From a virus: DNA of 64,000 nucleotides. The first letter of the stretch is position 1, and the number at the start of each line of letters is the position of its first letter. The notes beneath the pieces were generated by a model. The model was not told the DNA's origin. It saw only the letters and a list, made by a program, of their open reading frames with translations, and did no database searches. Location: positions 90,412 to 154,411 of IMG/VR virus record IMGVR_UViG_3300042307_001176. One strand, 5' to 3'. Below are positions 929 through 8,612 of this stretch, in pieces. Position numbers and translations under genes: made by a program.

Positions 929-936
929 TATATTTG
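929..936 (+). promoter_or_regulatory. early promoter -7 element of tRNA array A (TATATTTG)
   Basis: TATATTTG matches the Bacteroidota -7 consensus TAnnTTTG. A run of T at 906-913 is placed correctly for the -33 element. The leader ORF begins 37 nt downstream, almost the same distance as in arrays B (33) and C (39). Confidence 0.75.
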
Positions 937-972
937 TGAAACAAAATAACAAAGAGAACATATAATACTCAA

Positions 973-1032
973 ATGAACAAAACAATTAACATATTACCTA
1001 TATCATTAAGACCGTCGTCAAGACGATCCTAA
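973..1032 (+). CDS. leader peptide A, 19 aa, putative attenuator ORF
   Basis: A 19-codon ORF, MNKTINILPISLRPSSRRS, follows the TATATTTG promoter. Its last twelve codons are TTA CCT ATA TCA TTA AGA and then CCG TCG TCA AGA CGA TCC: almost entirely Pro, Ile, Ser and Arg, the amino acids carried by the tRNAs of the array that follows (Ser-UGA, Arg-UCU, Pro-UGG, Ile-UAU, Met). Ser appears only as TCN, and two of three Arg codons are AGA. The stop codon lies inside an anti-terminator segment (1030-1038) that can pair with the terminator's 5' arm. By analogy with amino-acid biosynthesis attenuators, I infer that stalling on these codons would allow transcription of the tRNAs. No ribosome-binding site is obvious, as is usual in this genome. 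Confidence 0.75.
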   Translation: MNKTINILPISLRPSSRRS

Positions 1033-1099
1033 AGGTCCTATGTTAATAAAAAATAATCATTAACTAAACCGGGACCTTTAAAAGTCTCGGTTTTTTTTT
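1030..1099 (+). terminator. attenuator A: alternative anti-terminator and terminator hairpins
   Basis: Terminator: 1067-1075 (AACCGGGAC) pairs with 1084-1092 (GTCTCGGTT), nine pairs with one G-U, followed by nine T. Alternative: 1030-1038 (TAAAGGTCC, including the leader stop codon) pairs perfectly with 1072-1080 (GGACCTTTA). Because both use 1072-1075, the two structures exclude each other. Confidence 0.8.
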
Positions 1100-1100
1100 G

Positions 1101-1112
1101 TGTTCTTTGACA
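1101..1112 (+). promoter_or_regulatory. boxA-like antitermination sequence, array A
   Basis: TGTTCTTTGACA directly follows the terminator T-tract and precedes the first tRNA by 17 nt. It resembles the NusB/NusE-binding boxA of rRNA leaders (E. coli core GCTCTTTAACA). A nearly identical copy precedes array C and a variant precedes array B. Confidence 0.6.
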
Positions 1113-1129
1113 TGTTGGATTATAAAATT

Positions 1130-1219
1130 GGAGAGTTGCCAGAGCCAGGCTTAATGGATCAGTCTTGAAAACTGACGTAGCGAAAGTTACCGGGGGTTCG
1201 AATCCCTCACTCTCCGCCA
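1130..1219 (+). tRNA. tRNA-Ser(UGA)
   Basis: Cloverleaf with acceptor GGAGAGT/ACTCTCC, anticodon loop CTTGAAA giving anticodon UGA, a long variable arm typical of tRNA-Ser and an encoded CCA. First tRNA of array A. It reads UCA and UCG, the Ser codons used in leader A. Confidence 0.95.
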
Positions 1220-1222
1220 ATT

Positions 1223-1296
1223 GGTCCCGTAGCTCAGCTGGATAGAGCAACGCCCTTCTAAGGCGAAGGTCGAAGGTTCGAATCCTTCCGGGATCA
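1223..1296 (+). tRNA. tRNA-Arg(UCU)
   Basis: Acceptor GGTCCCG/CGGGATC, anticodon loop CTTCTAA giving UCU, standard T-loop TTCGAAT. CCA is not encoded. It reads AGA, the dominant Arg codon of this genome and of leader A. Confidence 0.95.
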
Positions 1297-1463
1297 CACA
1301 AAGCCCTCTGCCTAGCGCTGGGTATGGATCGAAGATAGAATATGCCTCTACAACGTAGACAGTTAGAATATTTCGGTATTCTTTAATGATATGCACACTT
1401 ATTCTCTAAATCGTGGGTTAGCACAGTTTGTATGTTCTGGGGATATTTAAAGACATACAATTT
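1297..1463 (+). other. 167-nt gap in tRNA array A with several hairpins
   Basis: No tRNA or ORF is convincing here. The stretch has small stems: GGTAT/ATGCC (about 1320-1347), CTAC/GTAG (about 1349-1359), AGAATA/TATTCT (about 1366-1382) and TGTATG/CATACA (about 1429-1459). It is co-transcribed with the tRNAs and may be a structured RNA or the remains of tRNA genes. Confidence 0.35.
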
Positions 1464-1536
1464 CGGGATGTAGATCAGTTGGTAGATCGCCTGGTTTGGG
1501 ACCAGGAGGCCGTCAGTTCGAGTCTGGCCATCCCGA
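1464..1536 (+). tRNA. tRNA-Pro(UGG)
   Basis: Acceptor CGGGATG/CATCCCG, anticodon stem CCTGG/CCAGG, loop TTTGGGA giving UGG. Third tRNA of array A; Pro codons CCT and CCG occur in leader A. Confidence 0.95.
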
Positions 1537-1543
1537 CATCAAT

Positions 1544-1617
1544 AGAGGCGTAGCTCAATTGGTTAGAGCACATGCCTTATACGCATGCGGTCACGAGTTC
1601 GACTCTCGTCGTCTCTA
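1544..1617 (+). tRNA. tRNA-Ile(UAU)
   Basis: Acceptor AGAGGCG/CGTCTCT, anticodon loop CTTATAC giving UAU, which reads the rare codon AUA. Two of the three Ile codons of leader A are ATA, while leader C, whose array has tRNA-Ile(GAU), uses only ATC and ATT. Confidence 0.92.
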
Positions 1618-1621
1618 CTTA

Positions 1622-1695
1622 GGTCCCTTAGCTCAGTAGGTTAGAGCAACTGACTCATAATCAGTAGGTCCACGGTTCGAGCCCGTGAGGGACCA
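1622..1695 (+). tRNA. tRNA with anticodon CAU (elongator Met, or Ile2)
   Basis: Acceptor GGTCCCT/AGGGACC, anticodon stem ACTGA/TCAGT, loop CTCATAA giving CAU. It lacks the three-G:C anticodon stem and the 1:72 mismatch of an initiator. It is either elongator Met or a lysidine-modified Ile tRNA; sequence alone does not decide. Confidence 0.85.
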
Positions 1696-1763
1696 CTAAA
1701 TTTTAAAGTCTTTAGGAGAACAAAAGTTCATGCTGGTTCAGATCCAACCTCTTGTATTTTTTG

Positions 1764-1772
1764 GATATATAA
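1764..1772 (+). promoter_or_regulatory. putative late promoter motif GATATATAA
   Basis: GATATATAA lies 7 nt upstream of the lectin-like adhesin gene at 1779. The preceding stretch, 1696-1763, holds no gene; it has a T-arm-like piece (GGTTCAGATCC at about 1735) that may be left from a lost tRNA. Confidence 0.45.
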
Positions 1773-1778
1773 TAAATC

Positions 1779-7829: not shown

Positions 7830-7910
7830 GATTAGAAGCGGCGAATGGGGTTACTTCTCAGAACTTTTAAATTTGACCAAAAAACACCTCGCTCAAATAT
7901 TCTCTAATCT
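7830..7910 (+). ncRNA. tRNA-sized structured element of unknown type
   Basis: Perfect 7-bp terminal stem GATTAGA (7830-7836)/TCTAATC (7903-7909) encloses a further hairpin ATTTGA/TCAAAT. Size and placement resemble a tRNA, but no T-loop consensus or convincing anticodon arm is visible. Degenerate tRNA or other small RNA cut out by tRNA-processing enzymes. Confidence 0.4.
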
Positions 7911-7915
7911 AAACT

Positions 7916-7987
7916 GGGGATGTAGCTCAGCGGTAGAGCTCTCGACTGTTAATCGATAGGTCGCTGGTTCGAATCCAGCCTTCCCCG
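7916..7987 (+). tRNA. tRNA-Asn(GUU)
   Basis: Acceptor GGGGATG/CTTCCCC (one mismatch), anticodon loop CTGTTAA giving GUU, T-loop TTCGAAT. Leader C has four Asn codons. Confidence 0.93.
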
Positions 7988-7992
7988 CAATT

Positions 7993-8074
7993 CGGAGTGT
8001 TGAGCAATTGGCTGCTCAGCTGACTGTAAATCAGCCGCCTTAAGGCATTGGGGGTTCGAATCCCTCCGCTCCGA
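7993..8074 (+). tRNA. tRNA-Tyr(GUA)
   Basis: Acceptor CGGAGTG/CGCTCCG, long variable arm, anticodon stem CTGA/TCAG, loop CTGTAAA giving GUA. Leader C has one Tyr codon (TAT). Confidence 0.93.
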
Positions 8075-8076
8075 CA

Positions 8077-8147
8077 CAGTGTATCTGTAAGATATAGAGA
8101 CGGACAGTCCGACGGTTGAAGTGGATGCGTAATTCCACACGTCTCTA
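8077..8147 (+). ncRNA. structured spacer with 7-bp stem AGAGACG/CGTCTCT
   Basis: AGAGACG (8096-8102) pairs with CGTCTCT (8140-8146), enclosing 37 nt with a GTGGA/TCCAC hairpin; a TATCT/AGATA hairpin precedes it. The stem resembles the acceptor of tRNA-Ile(UAU). Too short for a tRNA; possibly a degenerate one. Confidence 0.35.
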
Positions 8148-8150
8148 AAT

Positions 8151-8226
8151 GCGATAGTAGCTCAGTTGGTAGAGCACCGTCCTTCCAAGTCGGGGGTCGC
8201 AGGTTCGAATCCTGTCTATCGCTCCA
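8151..8226 (+). tRNA. tRNA-Gly(UCC)
   Basis: Acceptor GCGATAG/CTATCGC, anticodon loop CTTCCAA giving UCC, encoded CCA. It reads GGA, the codon used for most of the thousands of Gly residues in the fibre genes. Leader C has GGC and GGG. Confidence 0.93.
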
Positions 8227-8227
8227 C

Positions 8228-8300
8228 GGGGTAGTAGCTCAATTGGCTGAGCGCTTCCTTTGCAAGGAAGAGGATGTGGGTTCAAGTCCCATCTACTCCA
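8228..8300 (+). tRNA. tRNA-Ala(UGC)
   Basis: Acceptor GGGGTAG/CTACTCC, anticodon stem CTTCC/GGAAG, loop TTTGCAA giving UGC. Leader C has GCG and GCA. Confidence 0.95.
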
Positions 8301-8307
8301 CTTATAT

Positions 8308-8380
8308 GGCGAGTTAGCTCAGTTGGTAGAGCGTTGGAATCATACCCCAAAGGTCGGCAGTTCGAACCTGCCACTCGCTA
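8308..8380 (+). tRNA. tRNA with anticodon CAU (elongator Met, or Ile2)
   Basis: Acceptor GGCGAGT/ACTCGCT, loop ATCATAC giving CAU. It lacks initiator features. Leader C has one internal Met codon besides the start, consistent with elongator Met. Confidence 0.88.
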
Positions 8381-8382
8381 CT

Positions 8383-8459
8383 GTGACGGTAGCTCAGTTG
8401 GTTAGAGCGTCTGATTGTGGTTCAGAAGGTCGGGGGTTCGATTCCCCTCTGTCACCCCA
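8383..8459 (+). tRNA. tRNA-His(GUG)
   Basis: Acceptor GTGACGG/CTGTCAC, anticodon stem TCTGA/TCAGA, loop TTGTGGT giving GUG, discriminator C and encoded CCA. The base at -1 is T rather than the usual G. Leader C has one His codon. Confidence 0.92.
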
Positions 8460-8460
8460 T

Positions 8461-8533
8461 GCCTTTGTAGCTCAGTTGGTAGAGCACTTCACTTGTAATG
8501 AAGATGTCGCAGGTTCAATCCCTGTCAAAGGCT
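8461..8533 (+). tRNA. tRNA-Thr(UGU)
   Basis: Acceptor GCCTTTG/CAAAGGC, anticodon stem CTTCA/TGAAG, loop CTTGTAA giving UGU. It reads ACA, the main Thr codon of the fibre repeats; leader C has ACG. Confidence 0.95.
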
Positions 8534-8539
8534 CTAAAT

Positions 8540-8612
8540 TGTCCTGTGGTGTAATTGGCAACACGTCTGGTTTTGGACCAGAAGAGTCCAGGTTCGAGCC
8601 CTGGCGGGACAT
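8540..8612 (+). tRNA. tRNA-Gln(UUG)
   Basis: Acceptor TGTCCTG/CGGGACA, anticodon stem TCTGG/CCAGA, loop TTTTGGA giving UUG. Last tRNA of array C; leader C has CAG and CAA. Confidence 0.93.

Follow-up and report, generated by a model that had tools for sequence, protein, structure and literature searches.

Three arrays of transfer RNA (tRNA) genes in a virus genome are each preceded by a short open reading frame (ORF) whose codons list the tRNAs of the array behind it, and the whole has the architecture of a transcription attenuator. The arrays lie in a 64,000-nucleotide (nt) stretch of DNA, hereafter the window, which comprises bases 90412-154411 of the 154,411-base IMG/VR virus record IMGVR_UViG_3300042307_001176. 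We put at roughly 0.87 the probability that each unit is a ribosome-mediated transcription attenuator with tRNA availability as its input and the tRNA array as its output. All of the evidence for these units is sequence, and it is on this footing that we describe their architecture, the match between leader codons and array, the dependence of that match on frame, position and isoacceptor, and its recurrence in leaders of unrelated sequence. Judged in the same way, the arrangement recurs in many Bacteroidota phages, cultivated ones included.

Leaders and arrays in the window and its close relatives

Each unit runs from a TAnnTTTG promoter element through the leader ORF and a terminator hairpin to a boxA-like sequence and the tRNA genes (Table 1). 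The terminator is formed by segments 3 and 4, and an upstream segment 2, at or near the end of the leader, can instead pair with the 5' arm. A preliminary description of this DNA had proposed three such units, and each was found again where it had been placed. ARAGORN called 24 tRNAs in the window, all within arrays A, B and C, and a tRNA covariance model concurred; the Ser-GCU gene of array C (7579-7665) is missed by ARAGORN, gives a sub-threshold Rfam hit to tRNA-Sec, and has a Ser-gct counterpart at the same place in two relatives (L034 and L039). A detector that is blind to codons recovered unit A in the window and units B and C in a 100% identical locus (L008). It requires a terminator no more than 300 nt ahead of a tRNA gene, a segment farther upstream that is complementary to the terminator 5' arm and, close to that segment, the end of an ATG frame of 12-60 codons.

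The leaders list what their arrays encode. Leader A contains ATA twice, ATT once, TTA twice, TCN four times, AGA twice and CGA once; leader B contains GAG, GAT and GAC and uses mostly CTN for leucine; leader C contains AGY, ATY and CGN codons together with codons for every other isotype in array C. The division of the Ser, Ile and Arg isoacceptors between arrays, already described as echoed in the leader codons, is there as reported, and it extends to leucine, because array A carries the remnant of a Leu-UAA gene that is intact in five relatives (L009, L011, L013, L016 and L018). The two TTA codons of leader A are explained by the array having once held this tRNA, and leader B, as noted, mostly uses CTN. 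The three residues of leader C that do not match array C (E, P and D) all fall in or beside the antiterminator segment, and by eye its codon order does not track the order of the tRNAs. The codon match claimed earlier stands in altered form, as a roll-call with at least one codon for each tRNA type and not as runs of a single codon, the huge phages described below excepted; the logic joining array to leader likewise stands, except that it is not private to this phage and that the remnant Leu-UAA must be counted in array A.

No stretch of 34 codons among 100,000 drawn from the long frames of the window covered the 15 non-Met isotypes of array C, which makes leader C decisive alone. Random codon stretches of the window match the coverage of leader A in 4.4% of draws and that of leader B in 44%, so that these two leaders become significant only through comparison with relatives.

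The HNH protein encoded downstream and the protein next to it served as queries for close relatives, whose HNH proteins are 66-90% identical to that of the window. Relatives with intact arrays have the same three leaders. The expectation that leaders are kept along with their arrays thus held in the well-preserved relatives, and the sole broken leader, leader A of L015, which lacks a start codon and has gained an early stop, heads a degraded array A. Leader C shows 88% mean column identity among close relatives and varies in length by whole codons (35, 33, 32; L034, L039, L021). In four loci (L013 1303, L016 3372, L018 2455 and L110 2738) the stop of leader A has moved beyond segment 2, giving leaders of 24 codons that end in KVLC; a ribosome at the shifted stop would still cover segment 2. 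Segments 2, 3 and 4 of unit B have changed together in L034, from TCAGAGG/CCTCTGA/TCAGAGG to CCGAG/CTCGG/CCGAG. The 3:4 terminator of unit C retains 96.5% standard pairs in 11 aligned relatives, 4 of which carry a U-A/C-G double change, and its 2:3 antiterminator is 97.3% paired, with variation solely between G-C and G-U. The compensatory changes predicted earlier for both helices were in this unit found for 3:4 and not for 2:3.

Dependence on frame, position and isoacceptor

Among 51 representative leaders, the in-frame match of the sensing zone to the array was 0.631 versus 0.319 when permuted (z 16.5), and in shifted frames it was at or below expectation (z -1.6 to -3.0). The match is limited to approximately 10-60 nt upstream of segment 2: codons whose first base is 39 to 10 nt ahead of that segment match at 0.75-0.84, leader codons 2-4 lie near background, and from -3 nt onward the match falls to 0.31-0.32, under an expectation of 0.36-0.38. 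The phages of a held-out set (see below) gave 0.73 versus 0.22 at -21 to -13 and 0.23-0.26 from -3 onward. The control codons of the trp leader lie at a similar distance from its segment 2. For the amino acids whose isoacceptors can be told apart (Ile, Leu, Ser and Arg), the leader codon box agreed with the carried tRNA in 0.79 of cases versus 0.52 with labels permuted (p 5e-5). These three tests leave out two detector families, F14 and F16.

The 2:3 pairing beat dinucleotide shuffles at p<0.05 in 64% of 55 cases (Fisher 2e-31, a value inflated by the detector's requirement for at least 6 pairs). The terminator hairpin is more stable than the 2:3 duplex in 75% of cases, which suggests that the default state is probably off. 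The units thus contain a leader ORF with codons for the product, an intrinsic terminator before the first structural gene, an antiterminator exclusive with that terminator, and control codons that precede segment 2 by roughly a ribosome footprint. The earlier interpretation by analogy with trp- and his-type attenuators is supported by the sequence, and the frame, sensing-zone and cross-phage isoacceptor behavior to be expected of such a mechanism, which the preliminary description had not predicted, was also found.

Recurrence in other phages

Loci beyond the close relatives came from profile scans and from further stretches of larger records; being drawn via three protein families, they are not a random sample of phages, and the hosts of the metagenomic ones were inferred from promoter type and relatives. 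Because the limits of an array were set by ARAGORN calls and by the next leader found, the tRNA lists of some arrays are partial. The detector returned 170 candidates, or 84 distinct peptides in 42 families (35 once related families were merged), among them more than 20 further leader families, unrelated in sequence, from other phages. In the 17 families with a strong promoter, 0.556 of codons were decoded by the leader's own array versus 0.352 +/- 0.024 after leaders and arrays were shuffled (z 8.6; none of 20,000 shuffles reached the observed value), and in all 17 every amino acid of the array was covered by the leaders. The result persisted without window families A, B and C (z 7.4) and with all mechanical candidates (z 9.8), a test in which the clearly false families F14, F15, F16, F24, F28, F35 and F36 were retained. 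TAnnTTTG stands upstream of 28 of 60 representative leaders, and a boxA-like sequence follows 17 of the 60 terminators, versus 0.54 expected.

The same code was applied to a held-out set of named phages: the Prevotella Lak phages and the uncultured huge phages LR756500, LR756501, LR756502 and LR756504, with genomes of 462-735 kb, and Cellulophaga phi4:1. Named phages were picked through tail sheath and portal matches, which led to Lak, Tenacibaculum, Flavobacterium and huge phages, and through one nucleotide match; the HAD-like protein, as a query for cultivated relatives, gave remote matches only. The own-array fraction in the held-out set was 0.422 versus 0.224 +/- 0.021 (z 9.6, 0 of 20,000 shuffles). 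With the shuffled pairs above, this upholds the claim that a leader's content is nearer to its own array than to others.

Individual leaders of this set can be read against their arrays without statistics. Leader MTTSFQQQQQQQINRTD of LR756502, with seven glutamines, precedes four Gln tRNAs, and MRTILIIKKKKRDAIPIKIE of LR756504, with four lysines, precedes four Lys tRNAs; MKTTIKNTSSRSRSSKSGEVRLYS precedes Arg Ser Arg, MKAMILSLCLSLSLSLQKLGVVGVCKVIS precedes Leu Leu Ser Cys Ser Ser Leu Leu, and MKNLHNISVGVIAIGAGSVCLWLNYVS precedes Ile Gly Gly Gly Ala. In the huge phages the run LSLCLSLSLSL stands before Leu, Ser and Cys tRNAs, and in Lak-B1 the tRNAs His Pro Arg Arg Gly Gly Cys Met follow leader MKTLNMTYCMHPVCGMIHMFPCGGGRLMS.... 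The huge phages have small arrays of one or two isotypes behind leaders with repeated codons, like the his leader. Non-ATG starts and TAG read as Q were tried on the Lak and huge phages and proved unneeded, the only leader requiring a non-ATG start being leader 2 of phi4:1; the full Lak-A1 leader surfaced only in the non-ATG run, though it has an ATG inside.

Cellulophaga phi4:1 has three leaders, MKIQRLHLQELEQPIISGGTGV, KVQLTKTGITVIDKTKGARAYLGDTVIG (the non-ATG start) and MKTNYCTYNNSNWSFSYDTGSVCTLGSDGLIG, which split its array into Pro Glu Gln His Leu Leu Arg, then Ala Lys Ile Gly Met Asp Thr Val Arg Met, then Tyr Ser Asn Trp Phe; MKIQRLHLQELEQP is an example of a leader that precedes the first of these sets. 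Leader 2 is contained in an annotated hypothetical protein, gp075 (L234 2138-2257), and leaders 1 and 3 are unannotated. The same three leaders are present in phi17:2, and the Callevirus isolates phi38:1 and Calle_1 have three of their own with nearly the same amino-acid groups. Two of the three phi4:1/Callevirus leader pairs lack a convincing alignment (p 0.12 and 0.02) despite listing the same amino acids, which indicates that composition outlasts sequence. A single short leader is present in Gundel_1, where it was read by eye, and in phi10:1.

The detector found nothing in the tRNA regions examined of the non-Bacteroidota phages T4, PA5oct, Vibrio VPT02, Streptomyces Elmer, an Enterobacter vequintavirus and Synechococcus S-CRM01, and one spurious candidate in that of Aeromonas TSW001. 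It found no leader in PAU and pT24, which have tRNAs, or in the one stretch examined of crAss001, which has 23; MaF61, PTm1 and MA9V-2 have no tRNAs. From 138 cellular loci, mostly of Bacteroidota (137 tRNAs), came two spurious candidates, neither matching its array; these loci were found by HNH similarity or by tRNA searches in the phylum and were drawn by match score rather than by full survey.

Coordinates and neighboring features

Table 1. Elements of the three tRNA units, in window coordinates
Feature	Position	Strand	Basis or remark
Unit A promoter -7-like element TATATTTG	929..936	+	sequence
Leader A MNKTINILPISLRPSSRRS, 19 codons	973..1032	+	sequence; detector
Unit A segment 2 TAAAGGTCCT	1030..1039	+	overlaps leader stop; pairs with 1072-1080
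Terminator hairpin A (segments 3 and 4)	1066..1093	+	arms 1066-1075/1084-1093; T run to 1099
Unit A boxA-like TGTTCTTTGA	1101..1110	+	sequence
tRNA array A: Ser-UGA, Arg-UCU, Pro-UGG, Ile-UAU, Met-CAU	1130..1696	+	ARAGORN; tRNA covariance model
Leu-UAA tRNA remnant, array A	~1697..1755	+	read from sequence; intact in relatives
Unit B promoter -7-like element TACATTTG	5183..5190	+	sequence
Leader B MKHFLNIATDFQLRKEDDLLEDRFKCQRK, 29 codons	5223..5312	+	sequence; detector
Unit B segment 2 TGTCAGAGG	5299..5307	+	pairs with CCTCTGA in terminator 5' arm
Terminator hairpin B	5334..5358	+	sequence; detector
Unit B boxA-like CGCTCTTTGA	5371..5380	+	sequence
tRNA array B: Glu-UUC, Asp-GUC, Met-CAU, Leu-UAG	5387..5711	+	ARAGORN; tRNA covariance model
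Unit C promoter -7-like element TACTTTTG	6798..6805	+	sequence
Leader C MKNCSKHNINRMISQINGCYQTVAFWAKGKEPDRS, 35 codons	6844..6951	+	sequence; detector
Unit C segment 2 GATCGAAGCT	6940..6949	+	pairs with segment 3
Terminator hairpin C	6980..7009	+	sequence; detector; alignment
Unit C boxA-like TGTTCTTTGA	7013..7022	+	sequence
tRNA array C: Phe, Lys, Trp, Arg-ACG, Cys, Ser-GCU, Ile-GAU, Val, Asn, Tyr, Gly, Ala, Met, His, Thr, Gln	7038..8613	+	ARAGORN; covariance model

Some spacers within the arrays are themselves of note. The 166 nt between the Arg-UCU and Pro genes of array A (1298-1463) are strongly conserved in five relatives, are replaced by 5 nt in L109 and L110, and are possibly a small RNA; two spacers of array C, 7828-7915 and 8076-8150, form stable hairpins (-14 and -20 kcal/mol) and are possibly further small RNAs or tRNA remnants. 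A conserved RNA-like element of about 80 nt, with the core AGGCAGYTCTTGAGATGGAATGCAA, lies at 4137-4217 of the window, at 6375-6455 of L013 and near 6303 in L059, L061 and L063, and one copy sits between leader B and its tRNAs. In a pattern search of different phages, its terminal stem varied between copies yet stayed paired (AGGCAAAG/CTTTGCCT and GGAATAAGG/CCTTATTCC); a scan of 880-8700 against Rfam at E 0.5 gave no match for it. Two tandem paralogous genes, noted by eye at 2154-3005 and 3011-3787, encode proteins that start MATTR(P/A)FSYNPTQSTIAGTTN, with a third fragment near 4068.

On the DNA examined, L020 and L024 keep the neighboring HNH gene (shortened in L024) and have no tRNA; in L024 the HAD gene runs straight into the HNH fragment, leaving neither array C nor its leader. 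Directly upstream of tRNA genes, L034 (~3119-3440) and L021 (~4257-4570) have a gene that ends in MFDDIAKSEFNPNYHLEKVKQIVI, perhaps the terminus of a Ro60/TROVE-type protein.

Proposed mechanism and alternative explanations

The observations suggest a model in which polymerase would start at the TAnnTTTG promoter and transcribe the short leader gene. With charged tRNA available for all leader codons, the ribosome would reach the stop and cover segment 2, segments 3 and 4 would pair, and transcription would stop before the tRNAs. Were a listed tRNA scarce, whether cleaved by host defence, degraded in infection, uncharged or never abundant, the ribosome would stall in the sensing zone, segment 2 would be free to pair with segment 3, and the terminator would fail. 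Polymerase would then transcribe an array of exactly those tRNA types, with the boxA-like element probably helping, until the new tRNAs relieved the stall and the array switched off, a product feedback on the tRNA pool. Leader translation, termination and read-through, sensing in infected cells and the physiological trigger are all parts that we infer; candidate triggers would be host anticodon nucleases, phage-driven degradation of host tRNA, or a poor host pool. Leaders with one or two codons per type and many types would suit a sensor that asks whether any of these is missing.

Several observations weigh against this model. Double changes in the 2:3 helix are absent within the 11 sequences of family C, a candidate 1:2 protector helix, expected for an untranslated leader, is suggested by one fold of leader C, and the early codons of that leader lie far upstream of segment 2, where an effect of stalls is harder to account for. 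Leader C is complete in L015 and L016 though their array C has lost most of its tRNAs, showing that leader and array can be out of step, and crAss001, PAU, pT24, L022, L026 and L028 have tRNA arrays without leaders.

Leaders might instead sense amino-acid starvation, as classical biosynthetic attenuators do, and raise tRNA supply as a general response. Charging-based sensing is described (PMC1183508). Stalling depends on charged tRNA, and a ribosome cannot tell an uncharged tRNA from a missing one; amino-acid shortage alone, however, would not require Ile, Arg, Ser and Leu codons to follow the isoacceptor carried (0.79 versus 0.52, above), and extra tRNA is no cure for a lack of amino acid. 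With isoacceptors resolved, loss of tRNA is a better fit than shortage of amino acid, and we consider the starvation account unlikely. It is decidedly less plausible that leader translation governs the stability or processing of the tRNA precursor: stalled ribosomes can protect RNA and tRNA precursors do require processing, but attenuation, unlike processing, calls for what is seen here: a T run behind a hairpin, a second possible pairing, and a codon match that stops exactly at segment 2.

That the peptides work in trans as proteins, their composition matching by accident or shared origin, would fit the strong conservation of leader C among close relatives (88%), but leaders are unrelated between families while their composition tracks the array, the poorly alignable phi4:1/Callevirus pairs (two of three; p 0.12 and 0.02) list the same amino acids, and the matching ends at segment 2; we give this explanation very little credence. 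Less still can be given to the view that ordinary terminators insulate the arrays from upstream transcription and that the short ORFs arose by chance. Terminators before tRNA arrays are plausible insulators, and the coverage of leader B alone (44%) is not significant; yet a separate promoter precedes each ORF, the ORFs are specific in frame, position and array, with chance contradicted by the frame and permutation tests, and the matching is absent from control phages and cellular loci.

Beyond the attenuator model itself, we lean toward a broader reading in which Bacteroidota phages widely possess a tRNA surveillance circuit, with the tRNA set divided into modules, a leader for each that senses exactly its own tRNA species codon by codon, and cleavage or degradation of any host tRNA in infection inducing the replacement, under product feedback. 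Such a circuit, if real, would be an inducible counter to tRNA-targeting defence.

Significance and comparison with known systems

The reason for tRNA genes in phages, and the question of their regulation by the phage, have been matters of dispute for decades. The sensor before each array would state, genome by genome, which tRNAs the phage expects to run short, so that the cultivated phages phi4:1, phi17:2, phi38:1 and Calle_1 would allow direct tests of the codon-compensation, defence-evasion and host-degradation hypotheses. The leaders also provide an easy criterion by which metagenomes can be searched for such regulation, and they could be used as reporters of tRNA depletion. We found no earlier report of attenuated tRNA arrays in the open-access literature searched, preprints apart, and this silence is no proof. 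As far as could be found, these would be the first tRNA operons under leader-peptide attenuation and the first attenuators to keep watch over most of the tRNA set together.

Phage tRNAs that escape defences aimed at tRNAs (PMC10264068 and PMC11555353) share with these units the replacement of host tRNAs lost in infection. Those studies concern resistant or supplementary tRNAs, and PMC10264068 describes no control by leader peptides. Huge-phage and Lak genomes of 634-735 kb, by their sizes those of an earlier study of such repertoires (PMC7162821), carry up to 67 tRNAs; the main text of that study mentions no leaders, terminators or attenuation.

The attenuators of the enterobacterial trp, his, thr, leu and ilv operons have in common with the phage units a short leader ORF, control codons that lie shortly before segment 2, an intrinsic terminator and an exclusive antiterminator. 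In classical biosynthetic attenuators the regulated genes make the sensed amino acid, whereas here they are tRNA genes, with a boxA-like element downstream of the terminator, and the phage leader lists up to ~16 tRNA types, often by one or two codons each, with isoacceptors resolved. T-box riboswitches likewise couple transcription attenuation to tRNA, and the Rfam scan of 880-8700 at E 0.5 matched no T-box family. The T-box RNA binds uncharged tRNA directly, whereas the phage units are predicted to read the tRNA pool through a translated ORF.

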